The position numbers and the translations under genes were made by a program. Shown piece after piece: positions 16,041-42,574 of a DNA stretch of 64,000 nt (positions are counted from its first letter, which is position 1; each line of letters opens with the position of its first letter). The stretch covers positions 34,519-98,518 of the forward strand of contig NZ_JAAKGP010000011.1 of assembly GCF_011043545.1 (NCBI RefSeq). Direction: 5' to 3'. The notes under the pieces were generated by a model. The model saw only the letters and a program-made list of their open reading frames with translations. It was not told where the DNA came from and did no database searches. The DNA is from Rhodobacter sp. SGA-6-6 (GTDB lineage Bacteria > Pseudomonadota > Alphaproteobacteria > Rhodobacterales > Rhodobacteraceae).

Positions 16041-16256
16041 GCCGGGCGGGATGAGGCGAGGCACTGCCTCGCCCCCCGCCCCTGCGGGACATGTCACCCG
16101 GAGACGGCAGTGGCACAAGACCCCGAGAGGCCAGCGCCCGACCGGGCGGGCGAGAAGCGCCCGCCGAGGGCGGGCGGGCGCTGGCCGGGCCTTTGGGGCC
16201 CGGCCGGGACAAGGGGAAGCGTTGTGCTGTGGCGAAGGCACACGCCTTCGCCAAGG
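16041..16256 (+). repeat. Dispersed ~210-nt structured repeat, copy 1
   Basis: Copy 1 of five. It contains hairpin I (16055-16073, GGCGAGGC/GCCTCGCC), a two-level stem II (outer arms 16129-16140 and 16175-16186, inner arms 16145-16152 and 16158-16165), hairpin III (16183-16205, GGCCGGGCC/GGCCCGGCC, overlapping 4 nt of stem II) and hairpin IV (16231-16252, GGCGAAGGC/GCCTTCGCC with a 4-nt loop). It lies between the convergent genes cheD and the serine hydrolase gene and contains no credible reading frame. Confidence 0.9.
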
Positions 16257-16288
16257 GGATCGTCCAGGCAAAGCGGCAGCCCGTTCCC

Positions 16289-17449
16289 TTACCCCAGATG
16301 CCGGAACAGCGCCTCGAACAAGGCGATGTTGCGCTGGTCGATGTCGTCGTCCACCGGCTCGGCCTGCGAGGAGAGCTTGACGACGACCACCTCGCTGGCG
16401 GGGTCCACCGCCAGCCATTGGCCGTGGATGCCGATGGCGCAGAACCAGTCGCCGCCGGAGCGATACCACTGGTTGCGATAGGCCCCGCCCGGCAGCAGCT
16501 CGGGGAAGTCGCCGCGGGCCCATTGGCCGCGGTCGCCGCCCTCCACCGTGTCGCGGACCCAAGGCCCGGGCACCACCCGGCCGCCGGGGCCGATGCCGCC
16601 CTGCCGCATCATCTCGCCCACCCGGGCGAGGTCGCGCGCCGTCATCGACACCCCGCCGGCGGCGCGTCCCAGCCCCACGGCATCGACGGTCAGCGCCACG
16701 GGCCCGCGGCAGCCGATCCGGGTCCAGACCCTTTCCTGGAACAGGTCGGCCAGCCGCGCACCGCCCGCGCGCTCCACCATCGCGCCCAGCATGTCGGAAT
16801 TGGGCGAGCGGTAACGGAAGGCGTCGCCATAACCCCCGGGCAGCGGCGGGATGGTGCAGAGGAATTCGAGCAGCGTCAGGCCGTCCGTCCCCGGGTTCCA
16901 CAGCATCGCCCGGCGGTAGCGGGCGAAGGGGCTGTCCGGGGTCAGATAGGCCTCGTCGAAATCCAGCCTTGTGGTCATGTCGAGAAGGTGCCGCAGGCTG
17001 GCCTCGCCGAAGGCGGAGCCCGCGGCCTCGGGCACGAAGCGGGTCACCGGGTCCCCGGGCGAGAGCCTGCCCTCGGCCTCCAGCGCCCCCGCCAGCAGCG
17101 CGGTCAGGGACTTGGAGATCGAGAACACCAGATGCGGCAGCGCCGGGTCGGCATGGGGCGCGGCCCAGTCGGCCAGCACCCGGCCGGATTTCATCACGCA
17201 GAAGAGGTCGGTGTCATGCGCGGCCAGATGCTCCGCCACCGTCGTCCCGCCCGCGCCGAGCGGCGCCTGCAACAGGGCGGGGTCCTCGGCCGGCGCCTCC
17301 GGGCGCGGATCGGCGGGAAGGCGGATCGCGCTCGGCACCAGTTCGGCAACGTTCTGGAAGGCCCAGCGGCTGAAGGGCGCCGTGCGCCAGTTCGCCAGCG
17401 TCACCTCTGCGCGCCGGAACCCGTAGCGCGCCGCGAAATCCGTTGCCAT
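16289..17449 (-). CDS. Beta-lactamase-fold serine hydrolase (6-aminohexanoate-dimer hydrolase-like)
   Basis: A 386-residue protein of the class C beta-lactamase/esterase superfamily. The nucleophile motif SxxK is Ser110-Ile-Ser-Lys113 ('HLVFSISKSLTALL'); a Tyr-containing second motif is 'YRSPNSDMLG' (Tyr213), and a late 'GIHGQWLAV' corresponds to the third motif of NylB-like hydrolases. No signal peptide is seen, so it is probably cytoplasmic and not a resistance enzyme. The ATG at 17449 is used because the longer frame runs back through the glpR gene end. Substrate unknown; it is monocistronic between two palindromes. Confidence 0.85.
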   Translation of the reverse strand: MATDFAARYGFRRAEVTLANWRTAPFSRWAFQNVAELVPSAIRLPADPRPEAPAEDPALLQAPLGAGGTTVAEHLAAHDTDLFCVMKSGRVLADWAAPHADPALPHLVFSISKSLTALLAGALEAEGRLSPGDPVTRFVPEAAGSAFGEASLRHLLDMTTRLDFDEAYLTPDSPFARYRRAMLWNPGTDGLTLLEFLCTIPPLPGGYGDAFRYRSPNSDMLGAMVERAGGARLADLFQERVWTRIGCRGPVALTVDAVGLGRAAGGVSMTARDLARVGEMMRQGGIGPGGRVVPGPWVRDTVEGGDRGQWARGDFPELLPGGAYRNQWYRSGGDWFCAIGIHGQWLAVDPASEVVVVKLSSQAEPVDDDIDQRNIALFEALFRHLG

Positions 17450-17508
17450 GCCTGCCTCCCTGTCCGTCCCGACAGGGGTAGCGCCCGGCCCGGCCCGCCG
17501 CAAGCCCC

Positions 17509-17533
17509 GCGGATTTTCGGCGAAAATCCGGGG
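17509..17533. repeat. Short palindrome GGATTTTCG-n-CGAAAATCC after glpR
   Basis: A near-perfect 19-nt palindrome begins 2 nt beyond the glpR stop on the minus strand. The surrounding 25 nt recur with one mismatch at 27949-27973 inside the alcohol dehydrogenase gene, and 15 nt of it recur at 6915-6929 upstream of tpa. It may terminate glpR transcription, but recurrence in coding DNA shows it is a mobile or recurrent palindrome. Confidence 0.65.
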
Positions 17534-17534
17534 T

Positions 17535-18293
17535 TCAGGCCAGCACCACCCGCGTGCCCCAGTCGCGGCAGGCCGTTGCCAAGGGCTCGGGCAGGGCCAC
17601 ATCGGTGAACACGGTGTCGATCTCGGACAGCGAGGCGATCCGCGCCGGGGCGGAGCGACCCAGCTTGGAGCGGTCCGTCACCAGGAAGCGGCTACGCGCC
17701 CGGCCAAGGATCGCCCGGCTGACCCGCACCTCGGCCAGGTCGAAGTCCAGCATGTCGCCGTCGAGGTCCAGCGCCGAAGTGCCGACCACGGCGAAATCGA
17801 CCTTGAACTGCTCGAAGAACTGGGTGGTCAGTTCGCCCACCAGCCCGCCGTCCGACCGCCGCAGCGCGCCGCCCGCCACCATGATCTCGCAGCCCGGGTT
17901 GGCCAGCAGGATATTGGCCACGTTCATGTTGTTGGTCACCACGGTGATGTTCTTGTGGTGCAAGAGCTCGCGCGCCACCGCCTCGGTGGTGGTGCCGAGG
18001 TTCAGGATCAGGCTGGAATTGTCGGGGATCTCCGCCGCGCAGGCGCGGGCGATGGCGGCCTTGGCATCCTCGTTCATCCGCCGGCGCTGCTCGTAGCCGA
18101 TGTTGACGACGCCGGTGCGCGCCACCGCGCCGCCATGCACCCGGTCGAGGAACCCCGCCTCGGCCAGTTCCGACAGGTCGCGGCGGATGGTCTGCAGCGT
18201 CACCTCGAAGCGCTGCGCCAGGTCCTCGACCCCCACCCTGCCCTCGGCCCGGGCGATGTCGAGAATCTCGCTCTGCCGGATGTTCATCGCCAT
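17535..18293 (-). CDS. glpR: DeoR-family glycerol-3-phosphate regulon repressor GlpR
   Basis: A 252-residue DeoR-family repressor. The N-terminal winged helix is 'RQSEILDIARAEGRVGVEDL' followed by 'FEVTLQTIRRDLSELAEAGFLDRVHGGAV'. The C-terminal sugar-phosphate-isomerase-like sensor includes 'SSLILNLGTTTEAVARELL' and 'FLVTDRSKLGRSAPARIASL'. Glycerol 3-phosphate is the usual inducer. It is divergent from the glpD operon, and two inverted repeats in the shared spacer are candidate operators, so autoregulation is likely. The start at 18293 has GGAAAGG upstream; a second in-frame ATG lies at 18287. Confidence 0.92.
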   Translation of the reverse strand: MAMNIRQSEILDIARAEGRVGVEDLAQRFEVTLQTIRRDLSELAEAGFLDRVHGGAVARTGVVNIGYEQRRRMNEDAKAAIARACAAEIPDNSSLILNLGTTTEAVARELLHHKNITVVTNNMNVANILLANPGCEIMVAGGALRRSDGGLVGELTTQFFEQFKVDFAVVGTSALDLDGDMLDFDLAEVRVSRAILGRARSRFLVTDRSKLGRSAPARIASLSEIDTVFTDVALPEPLATACRDWGTRVVLA

Positions 18294-18333
18294 GGAACGC
18301 CTTTCCCCATCGCGGCCGGTTACTTGCTGCGGT

Positions 18334-18357
18334 TGCATTCGTTATTGCGCGAATGCA
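18334..18357. promoter_or_regulatory. Candidate GlpR operator 1
   Basis: TGCATTCG (18334-18341) and CGAATGCA (18350-18357) form a perfect inverted repeat with an 8-nt spacer, 41 nt upstream of the glpR start. DeoR-type repressors bind such TTCG-containing palindromes (E. coli GlpR sites contain TTCG/CGAA). Assignment is by position and sequence character. Confidence 0.5.
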
Positions 18358-18409
18358 GAAAATCCGGCCCTGCGGGCAGAGTATGATGCCGCCCTGGCAT
18401 TTTCAAATG

Positions 18410-18440
18410 TTCGTTTTTCCGGCAATCGCGCAAAAACGAA
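18410..18440. promoter_or_regulatory. Candidate GlpR operator 2
   Basis: TTCGTTTTT (18410-18418) and AAAAACGAA (18432-18440) form a perfect 9-nt inverted repeat with a 13-nt spacer, about 80 nt upstream of the glpD start. The local AT-richness suggests it overlaps the glpD promoter. Confidence 0.5.
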
Positions 18441-18521
18441 AATTCCCGATTGACGACGGCCGCGCCCCCGGTGCAGGCTTTGCCCGCGGAAGGCGAAGCC
18501 CTTCCCGGGGGAGGATCCACA

Positions 18522-20108
18522 TTGACCGAAGCGGCCCGGCCCGGCAGGACCGATCTCTTCATCATCGGCGGCGGCATCAACGGCTGCGGCATCGCCCGCG
18601 ACGCCGCCGGCCGCGGGCTGACGGTCACCCTGGCCGAACAGGGGGATCTGGCGCAGGCCACCTCCTCGGCCTCGACCAAGCTGTTCCACGGCGGCTTGCG
18701 CTACCTGGAATATTTCGAGTTCCGGCTTGTGCGCGAGGCGCTGGAGGAACGCGAGACGCTTCTGGTCGCCATGCCCCACATCAGCTGGCCGATGCGCTTC
18801 GTGCTGCCGATCCACGCCGGGATGCGCTTCGACAGCGACACCCCGACCAGCCGGCTCTTGTCGGTGGTCATGCCCTGGATGCGCGGCCGCCGCCCGGCCT
18901 GGCTGATCCGGCTGGGGCTGTTCCTTTACGACACCATGGGCGGGCGGAAGATCCTGCCCGCCACCCGGGCGCTGGACCTGACCCAGGACCCGGCCGGAAA
19001 GCCGCTGAAGCCGAAGTTCCGCCGCGCCTACGAATATTCCGACTGCTGGGTGGAGGATTCGCGGCTGGTGGTGCTGAACGCCCGCGACGCCGCCGCCCGG
19101 GGGGCCACCATCCTGACCCGCACCCGCGTCACCCACGCCACCCGGCAGGGCGACGGCTGGGAGATCGCCACCGAAACCCCGGATGGCCCGCGCATCCACC
19201 ATGCCAAGGTGCTGGTCAACGCCGGCGGGCCCTGGGTCGAGGATGTGATCCGCAACGTCGCCCATATCGCCACGCCCGAGGGCGTGCGGCTGGTGCGCGG
19301 CAGCCATATCGTCACCCGCCGGCTTTACGACCACGACCGCTGCTATTTCTTCCAAGGGGCGGACGGGCGGATCATCTTCGCCATCCCCTTCGAGCAGGAC
19401 TTCACCCTTATCGGCACCACCGACATGGACCACGAGGGCGCGCCCTCGGAGGCCCGCTGCACCGAGGCGGAGCGCGACTATCTGCTGGCCTTCGCTTCGG
19501 AATATTTCGTCAGACCGCTGGCGGCGGAGGATGTGGTCTGGACCTATTCCGGCGTCCGCCCGCTCTACAACGACGGGGCGAAGTCGGCCACCGCGGCGAC
19601 GCGCGACTACGTGCTGTCGCTGGACAGGGACGGCCCGCCCTTGCTGAACGTCTTCGGCGGCAAGATCACCACCTCGCGCCGGCTGGCCGAAAGCGCGATG
19701 GCCAAGCTGGCGCCGTTCTTCCCGGGACTGAAGGGCAACTGGACCGCCCGCGTGCCCCTGCCCGGCGGCGATTTCCCGCATGACGGCAAGGCGGCGCTGA
19801 CCGCAAAGCTGCGGGCCGAATACCCGTTCCTGACCGACTACCACGCCGCAAGGCTGATCCGCGCCTATGGCACCGAGGCCTTCGCGCTGCTCGGCCCGGC
19901 GAAGGCCATGGAAGACCTCGGCCGCGATTTCGGCGCCACCCTGACCGAGGCCGAGATCCGCTGGCTGACGGCCCGCGAATGGGCGCGGACGGCCGAGGAC
20001 GTGGTCTGGCGGCGCAGCAAGCTGGGCCTGCGGCTGAGCGCGGAGCAGATTGCCGCGATCGGGCAACACATGACGGAAGGCCGGGCGATCACCCCGGCCG
20101 CGGAATAG
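18522..20108 (+). CDS. glpD: Aerobic glycerol-3-phosphate dehydrogenase GlpD
   Basis: FAD-dependent, membrane-associated dehydrogenase oxidising sn-glycerol 3-phosphate to dihydroxyacetone phosphate and feeding the quinone pool; 528 residues. The FAD dinucleotide fold is 'FIIGGGINGCGIARDAAGRG', followed by the family motif 'SSASTKLFHGGLRYLE'. I place the start at TTG 18522 because a strong GGGGGAGGA lies 8 nt upstream; an earlier in-frame TTG at 18450 has no comparable ribosome site. First gene of the glycerol operon; glpS follows after 9 nt. Confidence 0.95.
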   Translation: MTEAARPGRTDLFIIGGGINGCGIARDAAGRGLTVTLAEQGDLAQATSSASTKLFHGGLRYLEYFEFRLVREALEERETLLVAMPHISWPMRFVLPIHAGMRFDSDTPTSRLLSVVMPWMRGRRPAWLIRLGLFLYDTMGGRKILPATRALDLTQDPAGKPLKPKFRRAYEYSDCWVEDSRLVVLNARDAAARGATILTRTRVTHATRQGDGWEIATETPDGPRIHHAKVLVNAGGPWVEDVIRNVAHIATPEGVRLVRGSHIVTRRLYDHDRCYFFQGADGRIIFAIPFEQDFTLIGTTDMDHEGAPSEARCTEAERDYLLAFASEYFVRPLAAEDVVWTYSGVRPLYNDGAKSATAATRDYVLSLDRDGPPLLNVFGGKITTSRRLAESAMAKLAPFFPGLKGNWTARVPLPGGDFPHDGKAALTAKLRAEYPFLTDYHAARLIRAYGTEAFALLGPAKAMEDLGRDFGATLTEAEIRWLTAREWARTAEDVVWRRSKLGLRLSAEQIAAIGQHMTEGRAITPAAE

Positions 20109-20117
20109 GGAAACGGC

Positions 20118-21215: not shown

Positions 21216-21216
21216 C

Positions 21217-23958
<2,742 letters not shown>

Positions 23959-23959
<1 letters not shown>

Positions 23960-26321: not shown

Positions 26322-27806
26322 ATGACCCATATCCTCGCCATCGACCAGGGCACCACCTCATCGCGCGCGATCCTGTTCGATGCGGCCCTGCGCCCCGTCG
26401 CCCAGGCCCAGGCCGAGTTTTCCCAGCATTTCCCGCAGCCCGGCTGGGTGGAGCATGATCCGGCGGACCTCTGGTCCACCGTCGCCTCCACCGCCCGCGC
26501 CGCCATCGAGAAGGCCGGCATCGGCAGCGATCGGATCGCCGCCATCGGCATCACCAACCAACGCGAGACCACGATCCTGTGGGACCGCACCACCGGCCAA
26601 CCCCTGCACAAGGCCATCGTCTGGCAGGACCGCCGCACCGCCGACACCTGCGAGGCCCTGCGCGCCGCCGGTCACGAGCCGATGATCACCGCCCGCACCG
26701 GCCTGCTGCTCGACCCCTATTTCTCCGGCACCAAGGTGAAATGGCTGCTGGACCACATCCCCGGCGCCCGCGACAGGGCGGCGCAGGGGGAACTCGCCTT
26801 CGGCACCGTCGATTCCTGGCTGATCTGGAACCTGACCGGCGGGCGGGTCCATGCCACCGACGCCACCAACGCCGCGCGGACGCTGCTCTACAACATCGCC
26901 AGCAACGAATGGGACGCCGAGATCTGCGGCCTGCTCGACATTCCGATGCAGATCCTGCCCGAGGTGCGCGACTGCGCCGCCGCCTTCGGCGCCACCCGCC
27001 CCGACCTGTTCGGCCGCGAGATCCCGATCCTCGGCGTGGCGGGCGACCAGCAGGCCGCCACCGTCGGACAGGCCTGCTTCCGGCCGGGGATGATGAAATC
27101 CACCTATGGCACCGGCTGCTTCGCGCTGCTGAACACCGGGGCGGACCGGGTGCCGTCGAAGAACCGGCTCCTGACCACCATCGCCTACCGGCTGGACGGG
27201 CGGACGACCTATGCGCTGGAAGGCTCGATCTTCATCGCCGGCGCGGTGGTGCAATGGCTGCGCGACGGGCTGAAGATCATCCGCGAGGCGCGGGAAACCC
27301 AACCGCTGGCCGAGGCGGCCGAGGCCGCGCAGGAGGTGGTGCTGGTCCCCGCCTTCACCGGCCTCGGCGCGCCCTACTGGCGGCCCGACTGCCGCGGCGC
27401 GGTCTATGGCCTGACCCGCAACTCCGGCCCGGCCGAATTCGCCCGGGCGGCACTGGAAAGCGTCGGCTACCAGACCCGCGACCTGCTGGAGGCGATGCGG
27501 GCCGACTGGGGGGCCGCGGCCGAGGGCGTCTTGCGGGTGGACGGCGGCATGGTGGCCAGCGACTGGACCATGCAGTTCCTGGCCGACATCCTGGGCGCGC
27601 CGGTGGACCGGCCGGTGGTGACCGAGACCACCGCCCTCGGCGCCGCCTATCTGGCCGGGCTGCAGGCCGGGCTCTGCCCGCCGCCGGAGGACTTCGCCAG
27701 GGCCTGGGCGCTGGAGCGCCGCTTCGCCCCCGCCATGGCGGCGGAGGAGCGCGACCGCCGCTATGCCCGCTGGCAGCGGGCGGTGCAGGCGACGATGTCG
27801 GTATGA
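26322..27806 (+). CDS. glpK: Glycerol kinase GlpK
   Basis: A 494-residue FGGY-family kinase phosphorylating glycerol to glycerol 3-phosphate, the GlpD substrate and GlpR inducer. Motifs: N-terminal phosphate-binding '[17 protein letters not shown]', '[14 protein letters not shown]', and the C-terminal '[20 protein letters not shown]'. The start is set at 26322, matching the universal family N-terminus; the frame upstream is through the palindromes. The stop overlaps the next gene by 4 nt. Confidence 0.96.
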
Positions 27807-28945
27807 GCTTCGCGATCCTCCAGCCGCCGCGCATCCTGTTCGGCCGGGGGACTTCGGCGCAGGCGCTGCCGCTGGCGCAGGGCTTCGGCCCGCGCGGTCT
27901 GGTGGTGCATGGCGCTTCCCCGGAGCGGGCCGTTGCCGTCCTGGGCGGGCGGATTTTCGACGAAAATCCGGGGCTTCTGGCGATCTCCGTCGCGCAGGAA
28001 CCCACCCTGGCCTTGCTGGAGGCCGCCCTCGCCCGGGCCCGCGGCCATGCGCCGGACTGGGTGCTGGCCATCGGCGGCGGCTCGGTCCTCGACATGGGCA
28101 AGGCGCTGGCGGCGCTGGTGCCGGCCCCGGGCGGGCCGATGGATCATCTGGAAGTGGCCGGGCCCGGCTTGCCGCTGCCTGCCCCGCCGCTGCCCTTCGT
28201 CGCGGTGCCGACCACAGCGGGGACCGGCTCGGAGGTGACGAAGAATGCGGTGATCGGCCTGCCCGGTCACGGCCGCCCCGATCACGGCCGCAAGGTCAGC
28301 CTCCGCGACGACCGGATGATGGCGCGGATCGCCATCGTCGACCCGGCGCTGACCGACCAGTGCGCGCGGGCGGTGACGCTGGCCTCCGGCCTCGACGCGG
28401 TGACGCAGGTGATCGAGCCCTATGTCAGTTGCAAGGCCACGCCCTGGACCGATGCCATCACCCGGCCGGTCCTCGCCCGGGGGCTGGCGGCTTTGGTGCG
28501 GCTGATGCAGGGCGAGGAAGCGGGCGCAAGGGATGCGCTGGCCTGGACCTCGCTCTGCGGCGGGCTGGCGCTGGCGAATGCCGGGCTCGGCGCGGTGCAC
28601 GGACTGGCGGGGGTGATCGGCGGACGGACCGGCGCGGCGCATGGTGCGATCTGCGGCGCGCTTCTCGGGCCGGTGCTGGCGATGAACCGGCGGCTGGCCC
28701 CGGGACCGCGGGTGGAGGAGGTCTGCGGCCTGATCGCCGGCGTGCTCGGCGGCCCGGCGGCAGAGGCCCCGGCCCGGCTGGCGGCCTGGGCCCGGGCGGA
28801 AGGCTTGCCGGGGCTAGCGAACCAGGGGCTGCGGGCGGCGGATCACCGGGAGGTGGCGGAGGCGGCGCTGGAGTCCAGTTCGATGAAGGGCAATCCGGTG
28901 CAGCCCGCGGTGGAGGACCTGATCGCGGTGCTGGAGGCCGCGTGA
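27803..28945 (+). CDS. Iron-type alcohol dehydrogenase of glycerol operon
   Basis: A 380-residue group III (iron-type) NAD(P)-dependent dehydrogenase. Nucleotide-binding '[14 protein letters not shown]' and '[14 protein letters not shown]' are present. Expected metal ligands are Asp198, His266 and His280; the fourth ligand position, usually His, is Gln202 ('[14 protein letters not shown]'). ATGA overlap with glpK puts it in the glycerol regulon, so an oxidoreductase for glycerol, 1,3-propanediol or a related alcohol is plausible. Residues 50-57 (RIFDENPG) are encoded by a palindrome that also occurs outside genes. Confidence 0.85.
27949..27973. repeat. Palindrome copy inside coding sequence
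   Basis: GCGGATTTTCGACGAAAATCC plus flanking bases match the intergenic palindrome at 17509-17533 in 24 of 25 positions and lie in frame inside the alcohol dehydrogenase gene, encoding RIFDENPG. The insertion does not disrupt the reading frame. Confidence 0.65.
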
Positions 28946-28946
28946 G

Positions 28947-29159
28947 GCGGGCGGGAGAAGGCGAGGCACTGCCTCGCCCCCGCCCGTGCGGATGGGTTCA
29001 CCCGGAGGCGGCGGTCACAAAAAACCCGAGAGGCCAGCGCCCGACCCGGCGGGCGAGAAGCGCCCGCCGAGGGCGGGGCGGGCGCTGGCCGGACCTTTGA
29101 GGCCCGGCCGGGATGGTTGATATGGTGCGCGGTGGCGAAGGCAATGGCCTTCGCCAAGG
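28947..29159 (+). repeat. Dispersed ~210-nt structured repeat, copy 2
   Basis: Copy 2, starting next to the alcohol dehydrogenase stop codon and ending 15 nt before the convergent DUF1345 gene. Hairpin I (GGCGAGGC/GCCTCGCC), the nested stem II and hairpin IV (GGCGAAGGC/GCCTTCGCC) are retained. Hairpin III carries substitutions, and the segment before hairpin IV (GGATGGTTGA) resembles copy 5 rather than copies 1, 3 and 4. Confidence 0.9.
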
Positions 29160-29174
29160 AGAGGAAATCCGCCC

Positions 29175-29807
29175 CTACAGCACCCCCGCCAGCACGTTCA
29201 CCGCAAAGGCCAGAACGCCGAGGTTGAAGAAGAAGGCGAACAACCCGTGCAGGGTGACGGCGCGGCGGATGGCGCGGGAGGAGATCGCCAGGTCCGCGGT
29301 CTGGCAGGTCATGCCGATGGTGAAGGCGAAATAGACGAAATCGGCGAAGACCGGCTCGCCGCCCCCCTCACCGCCTTCGGGAAAGACGATGCCGCCGGCA
29401 TCCTTCTCCCCCACCCGGTCGTAGAACAGGTGGCCGTAGTGGAAGGCAAAGACCAGGTTGGCGAAAAGCCAGGCCAGCACCAAGGTCGCCCAGACCAGCG
29501 CCGCCTGACCGCCGCCGCCCGTCTCGCCGGCCAGCCGGGCCATCGCCAGCAGGATCGCCACCAGCACCGCCGCCGCGGTCAGGAGCAGGAAGGCCCGCCC
29601 GCCGTCGTCGCGGGCGGCGCGGGCGCGGGCGGCCTTCGCCCCGTCGGCCCGCCACAGCGGCAGCGCCGAGAGCAGGAACACCGCGGCGCCGAGGTCGAAG
29701 CCGAGGATCAGCGCGCTTTCCAGCGGCAGGCGCAGCGCCAGCGCCAGCGTGGCGGCGGCGAAGACCGCCAGGAAGATCAGGAAGCGCAGGTGGGGGATGG
29801 GGGACAT
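29175..29807 (-). CDS. DUF1345 membrane protein
   Basis: A 210-residue inner-membrane protein with about five hydrophobic segments. The C-terminal signature 'FADFVYFAFTIGMTCQTADL' followed by 'SSRAIRRAVTLHGLFAFFFNLGVL' identifies DUF1345. Function unknown; the family is sometimes annotated as a potassium-channel-like or general membrane protein without experimental support that I can cite. The ATG at 29807 is selected by the family N-terminus. Divergent from the molybdate genes with 118 nt between starts. Confidence 0.85.
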   Translation of the reverse strand: MSPIPHLRFLIFLAVFAAATLALALRLPLESALILGFDLGAAVFLLSALPLWRADGAKAARARAARDDGGRAFLLLTAAAVLVAILLAMARLAGETGGGGQAALVWATLVLAWLFANLVFAFHYGHLFYDRVGEKDAGGIVFPEGGEGGGEPVFADFVYFAFTIGMTCQTADLAISSRAIRRAVTLHGLFAFFFNLGVLAFAVNVLAGVL

Positions 29808-29925
29808 CGCGGCCTCGGGATGCAAGGGCCGCAGGATGCCGCGGGATGGCCCGCCGATCAACCGCCGGGCCTTGCGGCGCGGCCCGGCTTTGCCGAACAT
29901 GGGGCGCACAGGCAAGGAGAGGCCG

Positions 29926-30282
29926 ATGACCGGACTGAAGCTGCGTATCCTGTTCCCCGAGGTGATCCTGGGGCCGGGCAAGGCGGAACTGCTGGAAGGC
30001 ATCCGCGACACCGGCTCCATCGCCGCGGCCGGGCGGCGGATGGGGATGAGCTACAAGCGCGCCTGGATGCTGGTGGAAGAGATGAACGCGGCCTGGCAGC
30101 CGCCTCTGGTCTCCAGCGCGCGCGGCGGCCCCGGCGGCGGCGGCGCGCAGCTGACCGAGGCCGGGGCCGAGGTGCTGCGGCTCTACCGCGAGGTGATGGC
30201 GCGGGCCGAGGCGGCGGTGGCCGAGCCGGTGGCGGCGCTGGAGCGGATGCTGAAGGTCAGGGATATGTCCAAGGGAAAATAG
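29926..30282 (+). CDS. modE: ModE-like molybdenum regulator, DNA-binding domain only
   Basis: A 118-residue winged-helix protein homologous to the N-terminal half of ModE ('LLEGIRDTGSIAAAGRRMGMSYKRAWMLVEEMN'). The two C-terminal Mop/TOBE molybdate-binding domains of classical ModE are absent, so it must sense molybdate by another route or act with a separate molbindin. Start 29926 has AAGGAGA upstream. It lies 64 nt ahead of modA, with a ModE-type palindrome in the gap. Confidence 0.82.
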   Translation: MTGLKLRILFPEVILGPGKAELLEGIRDTGSIAAAGRRMGMSYKRAWMLVEEMNAAWQPPLVSSARGGPGGGGAQLTEAGAEVLRLYREVMARAEAAVAEPVAALERMLKVRDMSKGK

Positions 30283-30308
30283 CGCTTGCGCCGGGCGGGG
30301 CGCAGGCT

Positions 30309-30331
30309 GTTATGTTTCCCCCGACATATCG
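30309..30331 (+). promoter_or_regulatory. ModE box upstream of modA
   Basis: GTTATGT-N7-GACATATCG: the half-sites TATGT (30311-30315) and ACATA (30324-30328) are inverted repeats with the same centre-to-centre spacing as the E. coli modA operator as I remember it (GTTATAT-N7-TACATAAC). It lies 16 nt before the modA start codon, so bound repressor would cover the leader or start of transcription. Confidence 0.7.
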
Positions 30332-30346
30332 AACGGAGGAATCATC

Positions 30347-31099
30347 ATGTCCCGCCGCATCCTTGCCGCCGTCCTGGCGCTCGGCCTTGCCACCCCCGCC
30401 GCCGCCGAGGAGGTGGTGGTCTTCGCCGCCGCCTCGATGAAGACCGCGCTGGACAAGATGGCCGCCGACTTCCAGGCCGCCACCGGCAATACCGTGACCA
30501 TCAGCTATGCCGGGTCGAACGCGCTGGCCAAGCAGATCATCGAGGGTGCGCCGGCCGACATCTTCGTCTCGGCGGCGGTGAACTGGATGGACGAGGTGGA
30601 GAAGGCCGGGCTGGTGGCCGCGGACACGCGCCGCGACATGTTCTCCAACGCGCTGGTGCTGGTGGCCGCCGGCGACGCCGCGCCGGTCGAGATCGGGCCG
30701 GGCTTCGACCTGGCGGGCCTGTTGGGCGACGGCAAGCTGGCGATGGCGATGGTGGATTCGGTGCCGGCCGGGCAATACGGCAAGGCATCGCTGGAATCGC
30801 TGGGCATCTGGAGCGCGGTGGAGCCTTCGGTGGCGCAGGCCGACAACGTGCGGGCGGCGCTGGCCTTGGTGGCGGCGGGCGAGGCGCCCTACGGCATCGT
30901 CTATGCCACCGATGCGGCGGCCGAACCGGGGGTGACGGTGGTCGGCACCTTCCCCGCCGACAGCCACCCGCCGATCACCTATCCCGGCGCGCTGCTGACC
31001 GGGGCGGCGGACCAGGCCGACCGCGACTTCTACGCGGCGATCACCTCGGACGCCGGCGATGCGATCTTCGCCGAAGAGGGCTTCGTGATCCTCGACTGA
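30347..31099 (+). CDS. modA: Molybdate-binding periplasmic protein ModA
   Basis: A 250-residue periplasmic molybdate/tungstate-binding protein. The signal peptide 'RRILAAVLALGLATPAAA' is followed by the classical ModA opening 'EEVVVFAAASMKTALDKMAA'; anion-binding serines/threonines are expected at 'AAASM' and 'YAGSNAL'. The ATG is preceded by GGAGGA. First gene of modABC; supplies molybdenum, for instance to the SoeA-type enzyme at the left end of the window. Confidence 0.95.
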   Translation: MSRRILAAVLALGLATPAAAEEVVVFAAASMKTALDKMAADFQAATGNTVTISYAGSNALAKQIIEGAPADIFVSAAVNWMDEVEKAGLVAADTRRDMFSNALVLVAAGDAAPVEIGPGFDLAGLLGDGKLAMAMVDSVPAGQYGKASLESLGIWSAVEPSVAQADNVRAALALVAAGEAPYGIVYATDAAAEPGVTVVGTFPADSHPPITYPGALLTGAADQADRDFYAAITSDAGDAIFAEEGFVILD

Positions 31100-31116
31100 G
31101 CGTGTAGACCCGGCCC

Positions 31117-31815
31117 ATGACGGAGTGGCTGTCCCCCGACGAATGGCGCGCGGTCGCGCTTTCCCTGCGCGTCTCGGCGGTGGCGACGGCGGCCAGCCTG
31201 CCCTTCGGCGTGCTGGTCGCGCTGGCGCTGGCGCGGGGGCGGTTCCCGGGGCGGCAGCTGCTGAACGGGCTGGTGCACCTGCCCTTGATCCTGCCGCCGG
31301 TGGTGACGGGCTACCTGCTGCTGCTAACTTTCGGGCGCAAGGGCTGGGTCGGGCAATTTCTGGACCAGTGGTTCGGGATCGTCTTCGCCTTCCGCTGGAC
31401 CGGCGCCGCGCTGGCCGCCGCCGTCATGGCCTTCCCGCTGATGGTCCGCGCCATCCGGCTGGCGATCGAGGCGGTGGACCCGAAGCTGGAGCAGGCGGCC
31501 GCCACCCTCGGCGCCTCGCGGCCGCTGGTGTTCCTGACGGTGACGCTGCCGCTGATCCTGCCGGGGATCGTGGCGGGGGCCATCCTCGCCTTCGCCAAGG
31601 CGATGGGGGAATTCGGCGCCACCATCACCTTCGTCTCCAACATCCCCGGCCAGACCCAGACCCTGCCCTCGGCGATCTACGCCTTCCTGCAGGTGCCGGG
31701 CGGCGACGCGCAGGCGGCGCGGCTGGCGCTGGTGGCCATCGTCATCGCCATGGCGGCGCTGCTGCTATCGGAATGGGTCAGCCGGGCGGTGGCGCGCAGG
31801 ATCGCCGGAACATGA
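31117..31815 (+). CDS. modB: Molybdate ABC transporter permease ModB
   Basis: A 232-residue inner-membrane permease with about five helices and the EAA coupling loop 'EQAAATLGASRPLVFLTVTLPLILPG'-type sequence centred near residue 130. 'GEFGATITFVSNIPGQTQTL' is a ModB hallmark. It begins 17 nt after modA and overlaps modC by 4 nt. Confidence 0.95.
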   Translation: MTEWLSPDEWRAVALSLRVSAVATAASLPFGVLVALALARGRFPGRQLLNGLVHLPLILPPVVTGYLLLLTFGRKGWVGQFLDQWFGIVFAFRWTGAALAAAVMAFPLMVRAIRLAIEAVDPKLEQAAATLGASRPLVFLTVTLPLILPGIVAGAILAFAKAMGEFGATITFVSNIPGQTQTLPSAIYAFLQVPGGDAQAARLALVAIVIAMAALLLSEWVSRAVARRIAGT

Positions 31816-32894
31816 CGCTTTCCGTATCCCTCTCGCACAGCTTCGGGGGCTTCCGGCTGGAGGCCGCCTTCGAGGCGCCGCCGGGGGTGACGGCGCTGTT
31901 CGGCCGTTCGGGCTCGGGCAAGACCACGGTGGTGAACGCGGTGGCAGGCCTCCTGCGCCCCCACCGCGGCCGGGTGGCGGTGCAGGGCGAGGTGCTGGCG
32001 GATACCGAAGCGGGCGTCTGGCTGCCGCCGCACCGCCGCCGGATCGGCTATGTCTTCCAGGACGCAAGGCTTTTCCCGCACCTGACCGTGCGGCAGAACC
32101 TGACCTACGGCCGCTGGCTGGCCGGGCTGCGCGACGGGGCCGAGATCGGCCGGATCGTCGAGATGCTGGGGATCGGCCCCCTGCTCTCGCGCCGCCCCGG
32201 CGCGCTGTCGGGGGGCGAGCGGCAGCGGGTGGCGCTCGGCCGTGCCATCCTGTCCGGGCCGCGGATGCTGCTGATGGACGAGCCGCTTGCGGCGCTGGAC
32301 GATGCCCGCAAGGCCGAGATCCTGCCCTATCTGGAGCGGCTGCGCGACGAGGTCGGGCTGCCGATCCTTTACGTCAGCCATGCGCTGGCCGAGGTGGCGC
32401 GGCTGGCGACCACGGTGGTGCTGCTGGAGGCGGGCCGCGTGACCGCTGCCGGCCCGGTGGCCGAGGTGCTGTCCGACCCGGGCGCGGCGCAGGGCCTGGC
32501 CCCGCGCGAGGCCGGGGCGGTGCTTCTGGCGCGGATCGAGGCGCAGGAGGAGGACGGGCTGACCAGGCTCGCCACCGGCGCGGGTCCGGTCTGGCTGCCG
32601 CGGGTCGCCGGCGCGCCGGGCCGCGCCCTGCGGCTGCGCATCCTGGCGCAGGACGTGATGCTGGCGCTGGAGGTGCCGCAGGGCATCTCGGCGCTGAACC
32701 ACCTGCCCGCGGTGGTGGAGGAGTTGCGGGAAGACGACGGCCCCTCGGCGCTGGTGCGGCTGCGGGCGGGGGAGGAGGCGCTGCTGGCCCGGATCACCCG
32801 CCGCTCGGCCCGGGCGATGGAGCTGCGGCCGGGGCTGCGGCTGCACGCCGTGCTGAAGGCGGTGTCGGTGGCGCAGGAGAATGCCGGGGGGTAG
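31812..32894 (+). CDS. modC: Molybdate ABC transporter ATPase ModC
   Basis: A 360-residue ATPase: Walker A 'GRSGSGKTT', signature 'LSGGERQRVALGRA', Walker B 'LLMDEPLAALDD', H-loop 'VSHALAEVARL'. The C-terminal ~70 residues, starting near 'QGISALNHLPAVVEELRE', form the Mop/TOBE molybdate-sensing domain, so transport may be feedback-inhibited by oxyanion even though ModE lacks such a domain. ATGA overlap with modB. The operon ends in a dispersed repeat and a long palindrome. Confidence 0.95.
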   Translation: MTLSVSLSHSFGGFRLEAAFEAPPGVTALFGRSGSGKTTVVNAVAGLLRPHRGRVAVQGEVLADTEAGVWLPPHRRRIGYVFQDARLFPHLTVRQNLTYGRWLAGLRDGAEIGRIVEMLGIGPLLSRRPGALSGGERQRVALGRAILSGPRMLLMDEPLAALDDARKAEILPYLERLRDEVGLPILYVSHALAEVARLATTVVLLEAGRVTAAGPVAEVLSDPGAAQGLAPREAGAVLLARIEAQEEDGLTRLATGAGPVWLPRVAGAPGRALRLRILAQDVMLALEVPQGISALNHLPAVVEELREDDGPSALVRLRAGEEALLARITRRSARAMELRPGLRLHAVLKAVSVAQENAGG

Positions 32895-32910
32895 CCAGTC
32901 CGTCGCCTGG

Positions 32911-33123
32911 CCGGGCGGGATAAGGCGAGGCGCTGCCTCGCCCCCGCCCGTGCGCAGCGGATCAACCGGAGACGGCGCGGCACATAATCCCGGGAGGCCA
33001 GCGCCCGACCCGGCGGGCGAGAAGCGCCCGCCGAGGGCGGGGCGGGCGCTGGCCGGGCCTTTGGGGCCCTGCCGGACAAGGGGAAGCGTTGCGCTGTGGC
33101 GAAGGCGACGGCCTTCGCCAAGG
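32911..33123 (+). repeat. Dispersed ~210-nt structured repeat, copy 3
   Basis: Copy 3, between the convergent modC and the receiver gene at 33220-33600. All four stems are kept: hairpin I has the loop GCT, hairpin III carries one arm substitution (GGCCCTGCC), hairpin IV has loop variation (GAC). The 325-nt gap 32895-33219 is filled by this repeat and the palindrome at 33144-33212; no gene is seen in it. Confidence 0.9.
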
Positions 33124-33143
33124 GAGCGGGGACCGGGCAGAGC

Positions 33144-33212
33144 GGCGGGGTGAACCCCGCCCTACCCGGCAAGAGCGAATGCGGAGCGCCGTAGGGCGGG
33201 GTTCACCCCGCC
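33144..33212. terminator. Perfect 22-bp inverted repeat, bidirectional terminator
   Basis: Arms 33144-33165 and 33191-33212 are exact complements (core GGCGGGGTGAACCCCGCCC) around a 25-nt loop. Each arm is itself partly palindromic (GGGGTgAACCCC). It serves the convergent ends of modC and the receiver gene, whose stop is 8 nt away. I recall this type of motif from other Rhodobacterales genomes. Confidence 0.65.
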
Positions 33213-33219
33213 ACGCCCC

Positions 33220-33600
33220 CTACCCCTCCGCCAGCAGCCGCCGCACTTCCTGCCGCAGTTCCTTCAGCTCGAAGGGCTTGGTGATGAAGCCGTCGGCGCC
33301 GATCTCCACCCCGCGGCGGCGCTCTACCGAGGATCCGCGGGCGGTCATCATCAGGATCTTCACCCCGCGCAGCGCCGGGTCGCCGCGCACCTCGCGGCAG
33401 ATGTCGTAGCCCGAGACGCCAGGCAGCATCACGTCCAGCACCACCAGGTCGGGCCGCATCGCCCGGATCTTCGGCAGCGCGGCATCGCCGTCGGCCACCC
33501 GGTCGTGGTCGTAGCCCTCGCGCGTCATCAGGAAATCCAGCGCCAGCGCGATGTTGTCCTCGTCCTCGACCACCAGGACCCGGCGGGGGCGGTCCGGCAT
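33220..33600 (-). CDS. Orphan single-domain response regulator
   Basis: A 126-residue receiver without output domain: acidic Glu/Asp cluster 'VVEDEDNIALAL', phosphoacceptor Asp56 ('DLVVLDVMLPGVSGYDIC'), 'MMTARGSS' and Lys in 'GFITKPFELKEL'. Two tandem ATGs occur (33603 and 33600); the second is 7 nt from GGAGGG and is preferred. No kinase is adjacent; the nearest is the Cache sensor kinase at 39966. Divergent from the small membrane protein gene at 33685. Confidence 0.88.
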   Translation of the reverse strand: MPDRPRRVLVVEDEDNIALALDFLMTREGYDHDRVADGDAALPKIRAMRPDLVVLDVMLPGVSGYDICREVRGDPALRGVKILMMTARGSSVERRRGVEIGADGFITKPFELKELRQEVRRLLAEG

Positions 33601-33684
33601 CATCCTGCCCTCCGGCCCGCATCGGGCGGTAGACCGGAGCGCGCGGATCGCATATCGCTGGGGCAAAATCGCAAAGGGGAAATC

Positions 33685-35800: not shown

Positions 35801-35894
35801 GGGTTTCCTCCTTGTTCGGCCCGCCCTTGCGGCGGCGCCTTCCCTATCGTTCCCGGCCCCGCCCGCCCCATCGGGCAGGCAAGACTCGATTGTC

Positions 35895-35917: not shown

Positions 35918-36011
35918 TCGTCCCGTGGGTCTGCGCTTGCGCGCCCCCTTCCCTCCGGTCTTCCTGCCGCGCGCCCGGGGGGTTTCCTCCCTGCCCCGGA
36001 TGCGGGCCTTC

Positions 36012-36683: not shown

Positions 36684-36687
36684 CCGC

Positions 36688-38652
<1,965 letters not shown>

Positions 38653-38793
38653 CGCTCTCTCCCTCTTTGACCACGGGCCGGCAGGCCCGCCCCAGGCGCC
38701 CCGACACCAGGGGGCACATCCCTCGCGCAGCACTTTAACGCGGCGTCAATTTTTTGATAACCCCTTTTATCGCAAACATAATTCTGTAAATTT

Positions 38794-38822
38794 ATTTTCG
38801 GGACCGGCCGAAATCATGTCAA
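38794..38822 (-). promoter_or_regulatory. Candidate acs promoter
   Basis: On the minus strand TTGACA (38822 to 38817) is followed after 17 nt by GAAAAT (38799 to 38794), in the only clearly AT-rich stretch of the region. The predicted start of transcription is about 135 nt before acs. The whole 343-nt gap 38653-38995 holds no gene; it also contains a hairpin at 38863-38881 (GCCTGCCG/CGGCAGGC) that could end the regulator transcript. Confidence 0.4.
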
Positions 38823-38995
38823 TCCAATTTACAGCGTTCACATTTTCGTTGGAATTCCAAGCGCCTGCCGGACCGGCAGGCCGCGCCCGCCTCCGGCGCG
38901 GAAAAAGGCAGGCGGCAAACCGTTCCGCCGCCCTTCCGCGCGACGTCCGCCCGCGGGGACTCGCGCCGGACGGGCGCGAATCGCCGGCGGGGCCG

Positions 38996-39607: not shown

Positions 39608-39712
39608 CACCCCCCCGCACCCATACTCCACCCGGCCAGTCTAGGCGCTCCGCGCGCAGCCGCAATGGGGGCCGGCGGGGGGATTGGGGCGAGGAGGGTC
39701 CAAGACCTTGGA

Positions 39713-39930
39713 CCGGGCGGGAAAAGGCGAGGCCCTGCCTTGCCCCCGCCCGTGCGCGACGGTTGCACCCGGAGACGGTGGGGGCACCAGACCCCGAGGG
39801 GCCAGCGCCCGACCCGGCGGGCGAGAAGAGCCTGGCCCAAGGGCGGGGCGGGCGCTGGCCGGGCCTTGGGGGCCCGGCCGGGACAAGGGGAAGCGTTGCG
39901 CTGTGGCGAAGGCGATGGCCTTCGCCAAGG
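39713..39930 (+). repeat. Dispersed ~210-nt structured repeat, copy 4
   Basis: Copy 4, in the 358-nt gap between the FixJ-type regulator and the sensor kinase, both on the minus strand. Hairpin I changes G-C to a G-U pair (GCCTTGCC), which keeps the stem. The inner arm of stem II is altered (GAGCCTGGCCCAAG). Hairpins III and IV are intact. Rest of the gap: no gene seen. Confidence 0.9.
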
Positions 39931-39965
39931 AGGCCGGGAAGGTCGCGTCGGAAGCCGGGCCCTCC

Positions 39966-42284
39966 TCAACCCATCCGCGCCAGCGGCACGGTGAAGCTGA
40001 AACAGGCGCCGCGGCCGCGGGCGCCGTCGTGGCGGATGCTGCCGCCGTTGGCCTCGATCATCGACTTGCAGATCGACAGGCCAAGCCCCATGCCGCCGCG
40101 CTTGGTCGTTTCGAACGGCATGAAGGCGGCGATCTCCGGGTCGAGGCCCGGGCCGGTATCCTCGACCGAGACGGTGACGCAGCCTTCGCCCGCCTCTGCC
40201 CGCAGCCGCGCCCGGCGCTCGTTGTCGCGGTCGGCGGCCATCGCCTCGATGGCGTTGCGCAGCAGGTTGACCACCACCTGCGCCACCTGCACCCGGTTGG
40301 CCAGCACCAGCGGCAGGTCCGGCTCCAGCCGCTGCTCGATGGTCACCCCGGCCTCGGCCGCCTCGGCATGGACGAGGTGCAGCGTCTCGTCCAGCAGCTC
40401 GCCGATGTCGAAGGCCACCTTCGCCCCCTCGTCCTTGCGGATGAAGCTGCGCAGCGCGTGGATGATCTCGCCCGCCCGCAGCGACTGGCGCTCGATCTCC
40501 TGCAAGATCTCGCGCAGCTCGGCGTCCGGCGCGGGCTGCTGGTCCAGCACCAGCAGCGCGGTGTCGGCGTTCTGGGCGATGGCGGTCAGCGGCTGGTTCA
40601 GCTCGTGCGCCAGGCCCGAGGCCATCTGGCCCATGGTGTTGCCGCGCGCCAGATGCGACAGGTCGCGGTTCAGCTGGTCGATGCGGCTTTCCTTCTCCTT
40701 GCTGGCGGTGATGTCGTCGATGGTGACCATCACATGCAGCGCCCGGCCGGCGCTGTCGCTGATCAGGTTGCCGCTGACCGAGACCCAGATCAGCCCCCCG
40801 TCCTTGCGCAAGAGCCGCACCTCGCGGTTGACCGCGAAGTCGCGCCTGCCGTCCGCCTCCACCGGCCAGGCGACCGGGTGGTCGGGGCTGGCGAGGTCGG
40901 CCATGGCCATGCCCGCCAGATCCTCGGCGCTGTAGCCGGTGATCTGGCAGAAGCGCGGGTTGACCCGCAGGAATGCCCCGCAATGCGAGGCCAGCTGCGC
41001 CATGCCCAGCGAGGACAGCTCGAAGGTGCGGCCGTATTCGTGCTCGGCCTCGCGCCGCGCCGCGATCTGCTGCATCAGCGCATCGTTGGCGCGCTCCAGC
41101 TCGCGGTAGGTGCGGGGCGTGGGCTCCGCCGGGTCGATCTCGCCCTGCGAGATCAGCGCCGAGCGGACGGCGAAGGCGCGCACCGGCTTGTGGATCCAGT
41201 TCGCCAGAACCAGGCCGGCGACGCCCGTCAGCGCCGCCACCAGCGCGGCGATCCAGATGTTCTCGGCGCGGTTGCGCTTGATCACGCCGGTGAAGTCGTC
41301 CTCGGGGGCGTAGACGGCGATGGTCCAGGGCAGTTTCTCGCTGCCCATCGGCATCACCGTCGCCACATAGCGGGCGCCGCGGTAGGTGAACTGGGTCGGC
41401 GTCTCCTCGGCCACCCGCACCTCGCCGTCCTTCATCAGGCCGCCGAAGGCGTCGCGGGCGATCGGGTCGTCGAATTCGCGGATATCGGCGAAGCGCAGGG
41501 TGCCGTCGTCGTTGCTGGCCTTCAGCAGCTCCAGCTGCGGGTGGGCGATCACGTCGCCGTTGCGGTGGATGATCAGCGCCCGGCCGGTCTCGCCGATGTT
41601 CAGCCGGGCGAGGAAGTCGGAGATGCGGCTGATCTCGATGTCCACCCCGATCACCCCGCGGATGCCGGCGCCGTCGGAATCCAGCACCGGCGCGGCGAGG
41701 GTGATGCCGGGCTGCTGCGAGGTGAAGAAGATGTAGGGATCGGTCCAGATCGTCGCCCGCCCTTCGCTGGCCCTGGCATACCAGGGGCGGGTGCGGGGGT
41801 CGTAGCTGTCCTCGGGCGTCTCTTCCCGCTTCACCGCCCGGAAGTCGGCGGTGCGCCAGAACAGCTCCACCTTCCGGGCGCCGTCCGCGTGGGTGATGAT
41901 CTTCGACCGGAAGGGGGCGGGGCCGTCGGGCATCCGCATCACCATGACGAAATCGCCGCCGGCGCTGCCGTAATAGACCCCGGCGAATTGCGGCGAGATC
42001 AGCAGCTGCTGGAACAGAAGCTGTTCCAGCAGCCGCGGGTCGTCGCTGGCGATGACCCGGTTCTGCGCCAGCCGCGCGGCCAGTTCCGCCGCACCCTCGG
42101 CCGGGCGGAGGAAGCCGCGGGCATGTTCGATGGTGTTGGTGCCGACATCGCTGAGCAGGTCGCGCGCATGGCGGATCAGCGCCTGTTCCGAGGTGACGTA
42201 GGAGGAGAAGACCACCACCAGCACGGCCAGGAACTGCAGCCCGGCCAGGCAGACCGCCAGAAGGAGGCCAAGCGATTTCTTCAC
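39966..42284 (-). CDS. Cache-domain sensor histidine kinase
   Basis: A 772-residue membrane kinase. Membrane helix at about 3-28, double-Cache periplasmic sensor to about 325 ('YDPRTRPWYARASEGRATIW', 'GVIGVDIEISRISDFL'), second helix ('IWIAALVAALTGVAGLVLAN'), a PAS domain with PAC, then HisKA ('GLAHELNQPLTAIAQNADTA') and HATPase ('NLLRNAIEAM', 'DTGPGLDPE', 'GMGLGLSICKSM'). There is no suitable ATG; GTG at 42284 follows GGAG by 6 nt and gives a natural N-terminus. Double-Cache domains usually bind small organic acids or amino acids. Bracketed by repeat copies 4 and 5. Confidence 0.88.
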   Translation of the reverse strand: MKKSLGLLLAVCLAGLQFLAVLVVVFSSYVTSEQALIRHARDLLSDVGTNTIEHARGFLRPAEGAAELAARLAQNRVIASDDPRLLEQLLFQQLLISPQFAGVYYGSAGGDFVMVMRMPDGPAPFRSKIITHADGARKVELFWRTADFRAVKREETPEDSYDPRTRPWYARASEGRATIWTDPYIFFTSQQPGITLAAPVLDSDGAGIRGVIGVDIEISRISDFLARLNIGETGRALIIHRNGDVIAHPQLELLKASNDDGTLRFADIREFDDPIARDAFGGLMKDGEVRVAEETPTQFTYRGARYVATVMPMGSEKLPWTIAVYAPEDDFTGVIKRNRAENIWIAALVAALTGVAGLVLANWIHKPVRAFAVRSALISQGEIDPAEPTPRTYRELERANDALMQQIAARREAEHEYGRTFELSSLGMAQLASHCGAFLRVNPRFCQITGYSAEDLAGMAMADLASPDHPVAWPVEADGRRDFAVNREVRLLRKDGGLIWVSVSGNLISDSAGRALHVMVTIDDITASKEKESRIDQLNRDLSHLARGNTMGQMASGLAHELNQPLTAIAQNADTALLVLDQQPAPDAELREILQEIERQSLRAGEIIHALRSFIRKDEGAKVAFDIGELLDETLHLVHAEAAEAGVTIEQRLEPDLPLVLANRVQVAQVVVNLLRNAIEAMAADRDNERRARLRAEAGEGCVTVSVEDTGPGLDPEIAAFMPFETTKRGGMGLGLSICKSMIEANGGSIRHDGARGRGACFSFTVPLARMG

Positions 42285-42367
42285 CAGCGGCTCCACATCC
42301 CCTTCGTCCGCCTGCCGCGGACGCCGTCGATCTCTAGGCCGGATCGGCGGTTGCCGCAACTCGTCCT

Positions 42368-42574
42368 CGGGCGGGGGCGAGGCACTGCCTCGCCCCCGCC
42401 CGTGCGCAGCGGTTGCACCCGGAGACGCTGGCAGCCCTGAACCCGGAGAGACCAGCGTCCGCCCGGGCGGGCGTGAAGCGCCCGCCGAGGGGCGGGCGGG
42501 CGCTGGCCGGGCCTTTGGGGCCCGGCCGGGATGGTTGAACCGTTGCGCCGTGGCGAAGGCACACGCCTTCGCCA
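42368..42574 (+). repeat. Dispersed ~210-nt structured repeat, copy 5
   Basis: Copy 5, upstream of the sensor kinase and divergent from the DUF805 gene. All four stem elements are present; stem II has substitutions compatible with G-U pairing (CCAGCGTCCGCCC). It ends in GCCATTTTGG rather than GCCAAGG. It lies 84 nt from the kinase start, so it could influence the 5' region of that transcript. Confidence 0.9.

Follow-up and report, generated by a model that had tools for sequence, protein, structure and literature searches.

Among the papers covered, the nearest published system to the repeat described here is Br-REP1 of Bradyrhizobium, which, in the available portion of its description, consists of three palindromes, occupies about 200 central-stem sites in one genome, is found where the 3' UTRs of convergent genes overlap and differs very unevenly in abundance between related species (PMC5082802). 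The present repeat is likewise an alphaproteobacterial intergenic element at convergent 3' ends, with about 200 sites and an uneven distribution among relatives (PMC5082802). It differs in its four hairpins across ~210 nt, its GC-rich core and its covariation between genera, and the Br-REP1 central stem CCGGAATCTCGAGATTCCGG is absent, at up to 3 mismatches, from the window in which it was sought, i.e., the whole 64,000-nt stretch of Rhodobacter sp. SGA-6-6 DNA analyzed here. As far as the excerpted sources go, REP, BIME and REPIN elements are dispersed extragenic palindromes in up to hundreds of copies with species-specific stems, and REPs, which are 20–40 bp long, have been proposed to move as hairpins by a tyrosine transposase (PMC2817692, PMC3116915, PMC3733652). 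The dispersed extragenic palindromes, the many copies and the stems differing among species are all features of our repeat (PMC2817692, PMC3116915, PMC3733652), but it is several times longer, its genome lacks Y1_Tnp, and the element has no constant GTAG/CGTC head (GTAG in 8 and CGTC in 17 of 121 aligned copies from this genome); GTAG palindromes stand beside some copies only.

Bacterial MITEs are described, in the part of the source available, as short, non-coding, dispersed and intergenic, with 3'-UTR placement reported for QMITE2 (PMC10969869). The same four adjectives apply here (PMC10969869), but we observed neither a target-site duplication nor a simple terminal inverted repeat, and the two end hairpins differ. 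There is a loose mirror symmetry between the element ends in the form of sub-terminal GCGCA..CGNTT..CAACCGG blocks. The Rhizobium intergenic mosaic elements (RIME) are alphaproteobacterial intergenic elements of large palindromes, and our repeat can be likened to them by description, not by sequence, as alphaproteobacterial, intergenic and palindrome-built. The Caulobacter CIR, compared by description and GANTC content, is also a long, strictly intergenic alphaproteobacterial repeat; a CcrM-type repeat of this sort was rejected here, as the CcrM site GANTC occurs in 4/121 copies versus 0.42 per copy predicted from composition. With many dispersed, non-coding, intergenic copies and conserved palindromes, the family belongs to the general kind "interspersed structured repeat". 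No description of it was found in the open-licence literature that was searched.

An earlier note on this window, made from the sequence alone, had listed five ~210-nt copies with the same order of hairpins. All five are present (Table 1) and align over ~213 columns with a mean column identity of 86%. A covariance model run on the window recovered five full-length plus-strand matches (153–201 bits) and no further strong places; the remaining matches were weak minus-strand shadows at four of the five copy places (26–27 bits). The left hairpin pattern matched 10 times (5 places, both strands) versus 0.19 expected by chance, and the right hairpin pattern 5 times versus 0.00. The predicted fold of copy 2 has a z-score of -5.35, with none of 200 shuffles equally stable. 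Several details of the earlier description hold in the alignment, including the G-U pair through which copy 4 keeps hairpin I and the 4-nt GGCC overlap of stems II and III. Others need correction. The CCGGAGACGG block is not common to all copies, as copy 2 has CCGGAGGCGG and copy 5 has CCGGAGACGC; the outer stem GGGCGGG/CCCGCCC of hairpin I was missing from the list of elements; and hairpin IV loops do vary, but three of them had been given one base short (as AAT, GAC and GAT), the actual loops of copies 1–5 being ACAC, AATG, GACG, GATG and ACAC. The claim that the arms are constant and the loop variable is correct within the genome (121 copies) but not across genera, where the arms differ but still pair and GATG is the usual loop. 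Rfam returned 0 matches at gathering scores in the window and, at a laxer limit for seven loci, four matches with E of 1–4.8, all below gathering and at chance level. Copy 2 had no match in a phage collection either, and a phage origin was rejected.

Table 1. Repeat copies, parts of copy 2 and neighboring palindromes in the 64,000-nt window.
Feature	Positions	Strand	Context or composition
Repeat copy 1	16041..16256	+	Convergent gap between 15300-15833 (+, CheD domain) and 16289-17449 (-, beta-lactamase-fold protein)
Repeat copy 2	28947..29159	+	Immediately after the stop of iron-type alcohol dehydrogenase gene 27803-28945 (+); faces DUF1345 gene 29175-29900 (-)
Copy 2 hairpin I	28949..28985	+	Outer GGGCGGG/CCCGCCC, bulge AGAA, inner GGCGAGGC/GCCTCGCC, loop ACT; inner stem covaries across genera
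Copy 2 two-level stem II	29032..29090	+	Outer arms GGCCAGCGCCCG/CGGGCGCTGGCC, inner hairpin loop AGAAG; core present in many relatives
Copy 2 hairpin III	29087..29109	+	GGCC 29087-29090 common with stem II; outer 4 pairs of each mutually exclusive
Copy 2 hairpin IV	29133..29156	+	TGGCGAAGGC-AATG-GCCTTCGCCA; covaries across genera
Repeat copy 3	32911..33123	+	Convergent gap between 31812-32894 (+, ABC ATPase) and 33220-33603 (-)
GTAG-headed REP-like palindrome	33144..33165	-	20 nt past copy 3, oriented toward copy 3
Second GTAG-headed palindrome	33191..33212	+	Pattern match
Repeat copy 4	39713..39930	+	~36 nt past the 3' end of sensor kinase gene 39966-42296 (-); orientation against transcription
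Repeat copy 5	42368..42574	+	Divergent gap, 5' of sensor kinase gene 39966-42296 (-); hairpin I lacks the A-rich bulge and is one unbroken stem

The five copies are a small sample of a genome-wide family. In a BLAST search of the whole genome, the best 40 of 396 first-look candidates all matched, together with one short inverted piece. From 34 copies (the five of the window and 29 of the 30 best BLAST matches) we built model R1, which matched all of the best 150 of 10,701 first-look candidates, each across positions 1–213. We then have from nhmmer, in the fetched stretches plus the window (997,097 bases), 113 full-length matches (107 distinct) and 7 partial ones; 40 stretches had been picked for holding copies, and the 20 picked away from the 150 R1 matches contained 5 of the full-length matches, in 4 stretches. 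In all, at least 167 distinct full-length copies are placed in the 4.29-Mb genome. There are 195 exact matches to the hairpin IV pattern, and the left hairpin pattern is found 108 times forward and 82 times reverse; the true total is probably ~200. At ~213 nt each, 167–195 copies make up ~0.8–1% of the genome. Two half copies, a left half at L070:7968-8040 and a right half at L095:12087-12169, are possible remnants; the former lies upstream of a gene whose G256 counterpart has a core upstream.

Among relatives, the distribution is uneven. Across 12 congeners, R1 matched in two alone (G011 with 3 copies and G010 with 1), and the copies of G011, G010 and G024 share the architecture but have different stems. 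A second model, R2, found matches at E<=1e-5 in 65 of the 295 genomes searched from the same family, or in 58 of the 260 good-quality genomes. These counts, which include the present genome, come from a survey of one genome per genus and are a lower bound because 8 candidates per genome were scored under stricter filters. Ten of the 65 matches exceed 80 bits, and many of the remainder match chiefly across the core (stem II). Eight genera searched deeper, with 150 candidates scored in each, yielded at E<=1e-9 at least 150 copies in G310, 56 in G283, 46 in G241, 21 in G278, 11 in G062 and 4, 3 and 2 in the others; five other genera thus hold from 11 to at least 150 strong copies. The copies of G310 include head-to-tail arrays that repeat every ~240 nt and have an additional small hairpin in the spacer (contigs C26, C47, C57 and C108), and many of those listed for that genome sit at contig ends. 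The core is also found on plasmids of Leisingera, Phaeobacter and Tritonibacter. Named relatives of a window gene come from Gemmobacter, Tabrizicola, Cypionkella and similar genera; 16 such loci (L111–L126) gave no model match. Tabrizicola and Leisingera are both placed in Rhodobacterales by the NCBI taxonomy.

Hairpins I and IV change sequence between genera while their pairing is kept. With stem II, stem IV and the inner part of stem I assigned by hand in 32 sequences (10 genomes), 97.5% of cells are paired versus 38–50% when partners are slid, although cell counts of this kind are inflated by shared ancestry. Both sides have changed in 15 of 41 pairs, compared to 8.4 in shuffles and 3–8 when slid, and the clearest of these changes are three pairs in hairpin I and three in hairpin IV. 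Further pair types, one of five covariation measures, rise weakly above the shuffles (38 versus 33.8, 12/500). The count leaves out hairpin III, whose register differs among genera, and the outer stem of hairpin I. For the latter, an apparent covariation of 3 pairs (alignment A5) was rejected because the aligner had set the register wrongly: 29/32 sequences have GGGCGG/CCGCCC, and the stem is invariant under proper alignment. Of 27 sequences from other genomes, 22 have GATG and 3 have AATG as the loop of hairpin IV; in this genome GATG (44/121) and ACGC (37/121) are joined by others.

Within the genome, the 105 stem sites of the 121 aligned copies show few common alternative bases, and the 79 linker and loop sites average 19.5 differences from the consensus per copy. 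Some stem pairs have nonetheless changed on both sides: one stem II pair is C-G in 81 copies and G-C in 31, and one pair of hairpin III is C-G in 91, A-T in 16 and T-A in 3. Every copy has a sequence of its own, with 12 nt separating the closest pair and 36.6 the average pair. Singletons per site are nearly as frequent in stems (~0.2–0.8) as in linkers (0.5), so stems are apparently not strongly purged after insertion. Mutual information between variable columns falls near the permuted level past ~10 nt, which we take to reflect either a reshuffling of the copies through recombination or conversion, or an old divergence of star-like form, both being compatible with the data. The predicted fold contains a long-range stem closing two linkers in 113/121 copies, but the stem forms in 104–112/121 when halves are swapped between copies, and the duplex energy is no better within copies (-18.8) than between them (-19.1), so linker pairing is not copy-specific. 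Weak conservation extends past the modeled ends by ~9 nt on the upstream side and ~12 nt on the downstream side; the true ends of the element are therefore uncertain by ~10 nt.

Copies are found almost exclusively at gene ends. With genes called anew on the fetched stretches, 104 of the 107 distinct copies could be classified: 44 are convergent, 33 tandem-opposite, 21 tandem-same and 6 divergent, and none lies within a called gene, one overlapping a called gene by 26 nt. Of the 104 copies, 98 are flanked by a gene 3' end on one or both sides; the median distance is 29.5 nt, and 86 of the 98 are within 60 nt. Counted by gap, copies occupy 45/142 convergent, 55/670 tandem and 6/145 divergent gaps, where the choice of stretches inflates the absolute rates but not the contrast. 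Once 213 nt are subtracted, the median convergent gap with an element is 79 nt, versus 76 nt for gaps without one, in a comparison counted per gene end that omits element-free gaps below 40 nt; the lengths fit simple addition of the unit only roughly. In other genomes, the 27 loci comprise 11 convergent, 11 tandem, 2 divergent and 3 edge cases, with 0 overlapping a called gene, although several long gaps hint at uncalled genes. An intrinsic terminator (stem plus T-tract) was rejected, as TTTT occurs in 0/121 copies and in 3/121 of the 60-nt 3' flanks.

Orientation is independent of transcription, with 21 tandem copies oriented with it and 33 against. It is linked to the replicated strand in this genome. 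Neighboring copies share an orientation in 109 of 151 cases versus a shuffled mean of 76.5 (p 5e-5), and the strand of negative GC skew (C-rich), computed from the fetched part of each contig, carries 129 of 166 copies (contig sign-flip p 0.002). Contigs C6 (6/6 opposite) and C44 (split 7:7) are exceptions. Negative skew marks the lagging strand by established convention. Neighbors are not biased in G283 (14/32 same-oriented, from 42 of the 56 copies) or G241 (9/17, from 26 of the 46 copies), so replication coupling is not general. A KOPS-like use was rejected: GGGNAGGG is found in 0/121 copies, and orientation is unbiased in those two genera.

Comparisons with relatives reveal both shared and unshared sites. 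Relative G214 carries a full element between two genes whose counterparts here have a 4-nt overlap, and cores in opposite orientations part two ABC-transporter genes in G192 and G274 that overlap here. At the TRAP permease/TAXI junction, where 8 of 17 records with >=80% coverage were compared, the core is present in all four Leisingera aquaemixtae plasmids read, two of them intact and two (L239 and L240, from M602 and M597) with part of the core deleted between AGCGCCC direct repeats, likely by slippage across the hairpin. The same junction lacks a core in L. caerulea S141, L. thetidis, L. sp. NJS204 and L. methylohalidivorans; exact ends are unreadable because the rest of the spacer differs too, and neither this junction nor rfbB-rfbD yielded a clean empty site whose ends could be read. 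Cores at distinct loci of Leisingera plasmids are 92–95% identical across 73–82 nt. Turning to site sharing with this genome, 21 relative loci with a neighboring ortholog in the fetched stretches were judged by hand in two sets (3, after six others with weak 40–58% matches were dropped, plus 18). Seven have a copy here at the same gene end, six of them in the same orientation, and 14 of the 21 junctions have no copy here. One of the shared sites is a left-half remnant in this genome, and three are core-only in the relative. The chance expectation for a shared site is ~11% (106/957 junctions). Some members of the family therefore seem to have kept their positions since the genera split.

Based on these observations, we consider that the family, ~210-nt intergenic repeats of Rhodobacterales with four predicted hairpins and the full-length copies counted above, is probably non-autonomous mobile DNA. 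The best reading is an old, repeatedly amplified element of the same kind as REP and BIME repeats, though in a genome that has no REP transposase. Whole-unit presence and absence, differences in number and low-harm sites are together best accommodated by a non-autonomous mobile element, and the lack of a target-site duplication and of a Y1 transposase in 9/10 genomes is at odds with both a classical MITE and a REP moved by a RAYT. For the former, 7-mers are shared across 6 of 120 copies versus 6.3 in shuffles, with exact ends uncertain by the margin given above. For the latter, Y1_Tnp (PF01797) is absent from 9 of the 10 genomes tested, among them this one (G000), and the same search finds it in 5 of 14 control genomes; the sole match in the ten, G283:C28:59645-59878, is at cut-off (22.7 bits, or 23.1 with neighbors). 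Other observations count against mobility. The seven shared sites, six of them same-oriented, point to long residence and not recent jumping; the distinctness of all 121 copies, at least 12 nt apart in every pair, is unlike a fresh burst; and linkage near the permuted level requires recombination, conversion or long independent divergence. The earlier note had inferred selection or spread as a structured element, and both the compensatory changes across genera and the genome-wide spread agree with this. It had proposed a covariance-model search of the genome and relatives, which found many further copies and compensatory substitutions instead of five uncompensated copies alone. Its statements that these are not ordinary terminators, and not obviously of a REP, ERIC or CRISPR type, are likewise borne out by the missing T-tract and the lack of an Rfam match; no catalogued repeat family was matched in Rfam or the open-licence literature. 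Beyond the reach of the letters alone were the placement at gene ends, the link of orientation to replication, the differences in occupancy among relatives and the absence from the genome of the transposase class that moves REPs.

Alternatively, the repeats could be functional gene-end elements, either two-way transcription barriers or 3'-end protectors, that are selected and inherited with their genes. We regard this as the less likely account but one to be taken seriously: stems are almost invariant in 121 copies while linkers vary, copies adjoin gene 3' ends and convergent gaps here and in other genera, and six sites are shared in the same orientation across genera. Sites resembling intrinsic terminators are also scarcer before an element (6/137 gene ends) than at ends without one (50/404), a comparison confounded by the shortness of the stretch that precedes an element. 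However, stems carry private changes nearly as often as linkers do, which suggests weak selection on stems once a copy has inserted; in 33 of 54 tandem copies the element points against the gene, and its sense strand is therefore not transcribed from the neighbors; one G214 copy lies past a hairpin that, judged by eye, resembles a terminator, with an element-free counterpart in this genome; and 14 of the 21 comparable junctions are empty here. Compensatory changes and predicted stability, together with the GATG and AGAAG loops that most other genomes keep on one strand, would also be expected of a family of structured non-coding RNAs that act in trans or are processed from 3' UTRs. This we find improbable given ~200 dispersed copies whose orientation is indifferent to transcription, the lack of any sigma-70-like promoter pattern (the only pattern sought) at 28800-33300 around copies 2 and 3, and loops that would serve equally well as single-stranded DNA.

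A giant REP or REPIN, in which the repeat is an insert between inverted GTAG-REPs moved by a RAYT, draws some encouragement from the flanks. CCTAC occurs within 80 nt downstream of 48/120 copies versus 11 upstream, GTAGG upstream of 24/120 versus 13 downstream, and the palindromes point inward. Both tags accompany only 13/120 copies, though, a GTAG palindrome stands beside 0 of 27 elements in other genomes versus 12 upstream and 15 downstream of 120 here, and this genome has no Y1_Tnp, all of which makes the giant REPIN slightly more improbable still. Finally, a window of 70% GC could in principle generate chance similarity among GC-rich hairpins, or the copies could be an assembly artefact, but we give this almost no credence: 0–0.19 matches are expected by chance, 167 copies are placed with different flanks, and relatives exist in other genomes.

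Returning to non-autonomous mobile DNA, we can outline how such a family might persist. Loops that are mostly kept, arms that drift together and an orientation linked to the strand suggest that folded single strands exposed at the replication fork could be what a trans-acting enzyme recognizes. Insertion would be tolerated almost solely behind genes, above all between convergent genes, and old copies would be inherited, some keeping the same site across genera. More speculatively, and with considerable doubt, the repeat may be a single-stranded DNA element that spreads via the replication fork without a known class of transposase, its hairpins read by a putative enzyme, perhaps of host replication or recombination; each genus would have re-tuned the arms along with the enzyme, and the stems would have been homogenized among the ~200 copies as linkers were reshuffled. 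Identifying the mover would reveal a further route by which non-coding DNA colonizes bacterial chromosomes. A side effect on transcript ends, with hairpins working in both directions, is possible, and placement at gene ends makes such effects directly testable.

Two side observations concern other motifs. GTAG-headed REP palindromes GTAGGGCGGGGTTCACCCCGCC give 45 pattern matches in 1.04 Mb of this genome, which is without a Y1 transposase. Behind the same alcohol dehydrogenase gene that precedes copy 2, congeners have a different motif, TTTCATCTGTC..AAATATCCCGGGG with variants and a GC hairpin (L145, L146, L147 and L150), which is another candidate gene-end repeat.
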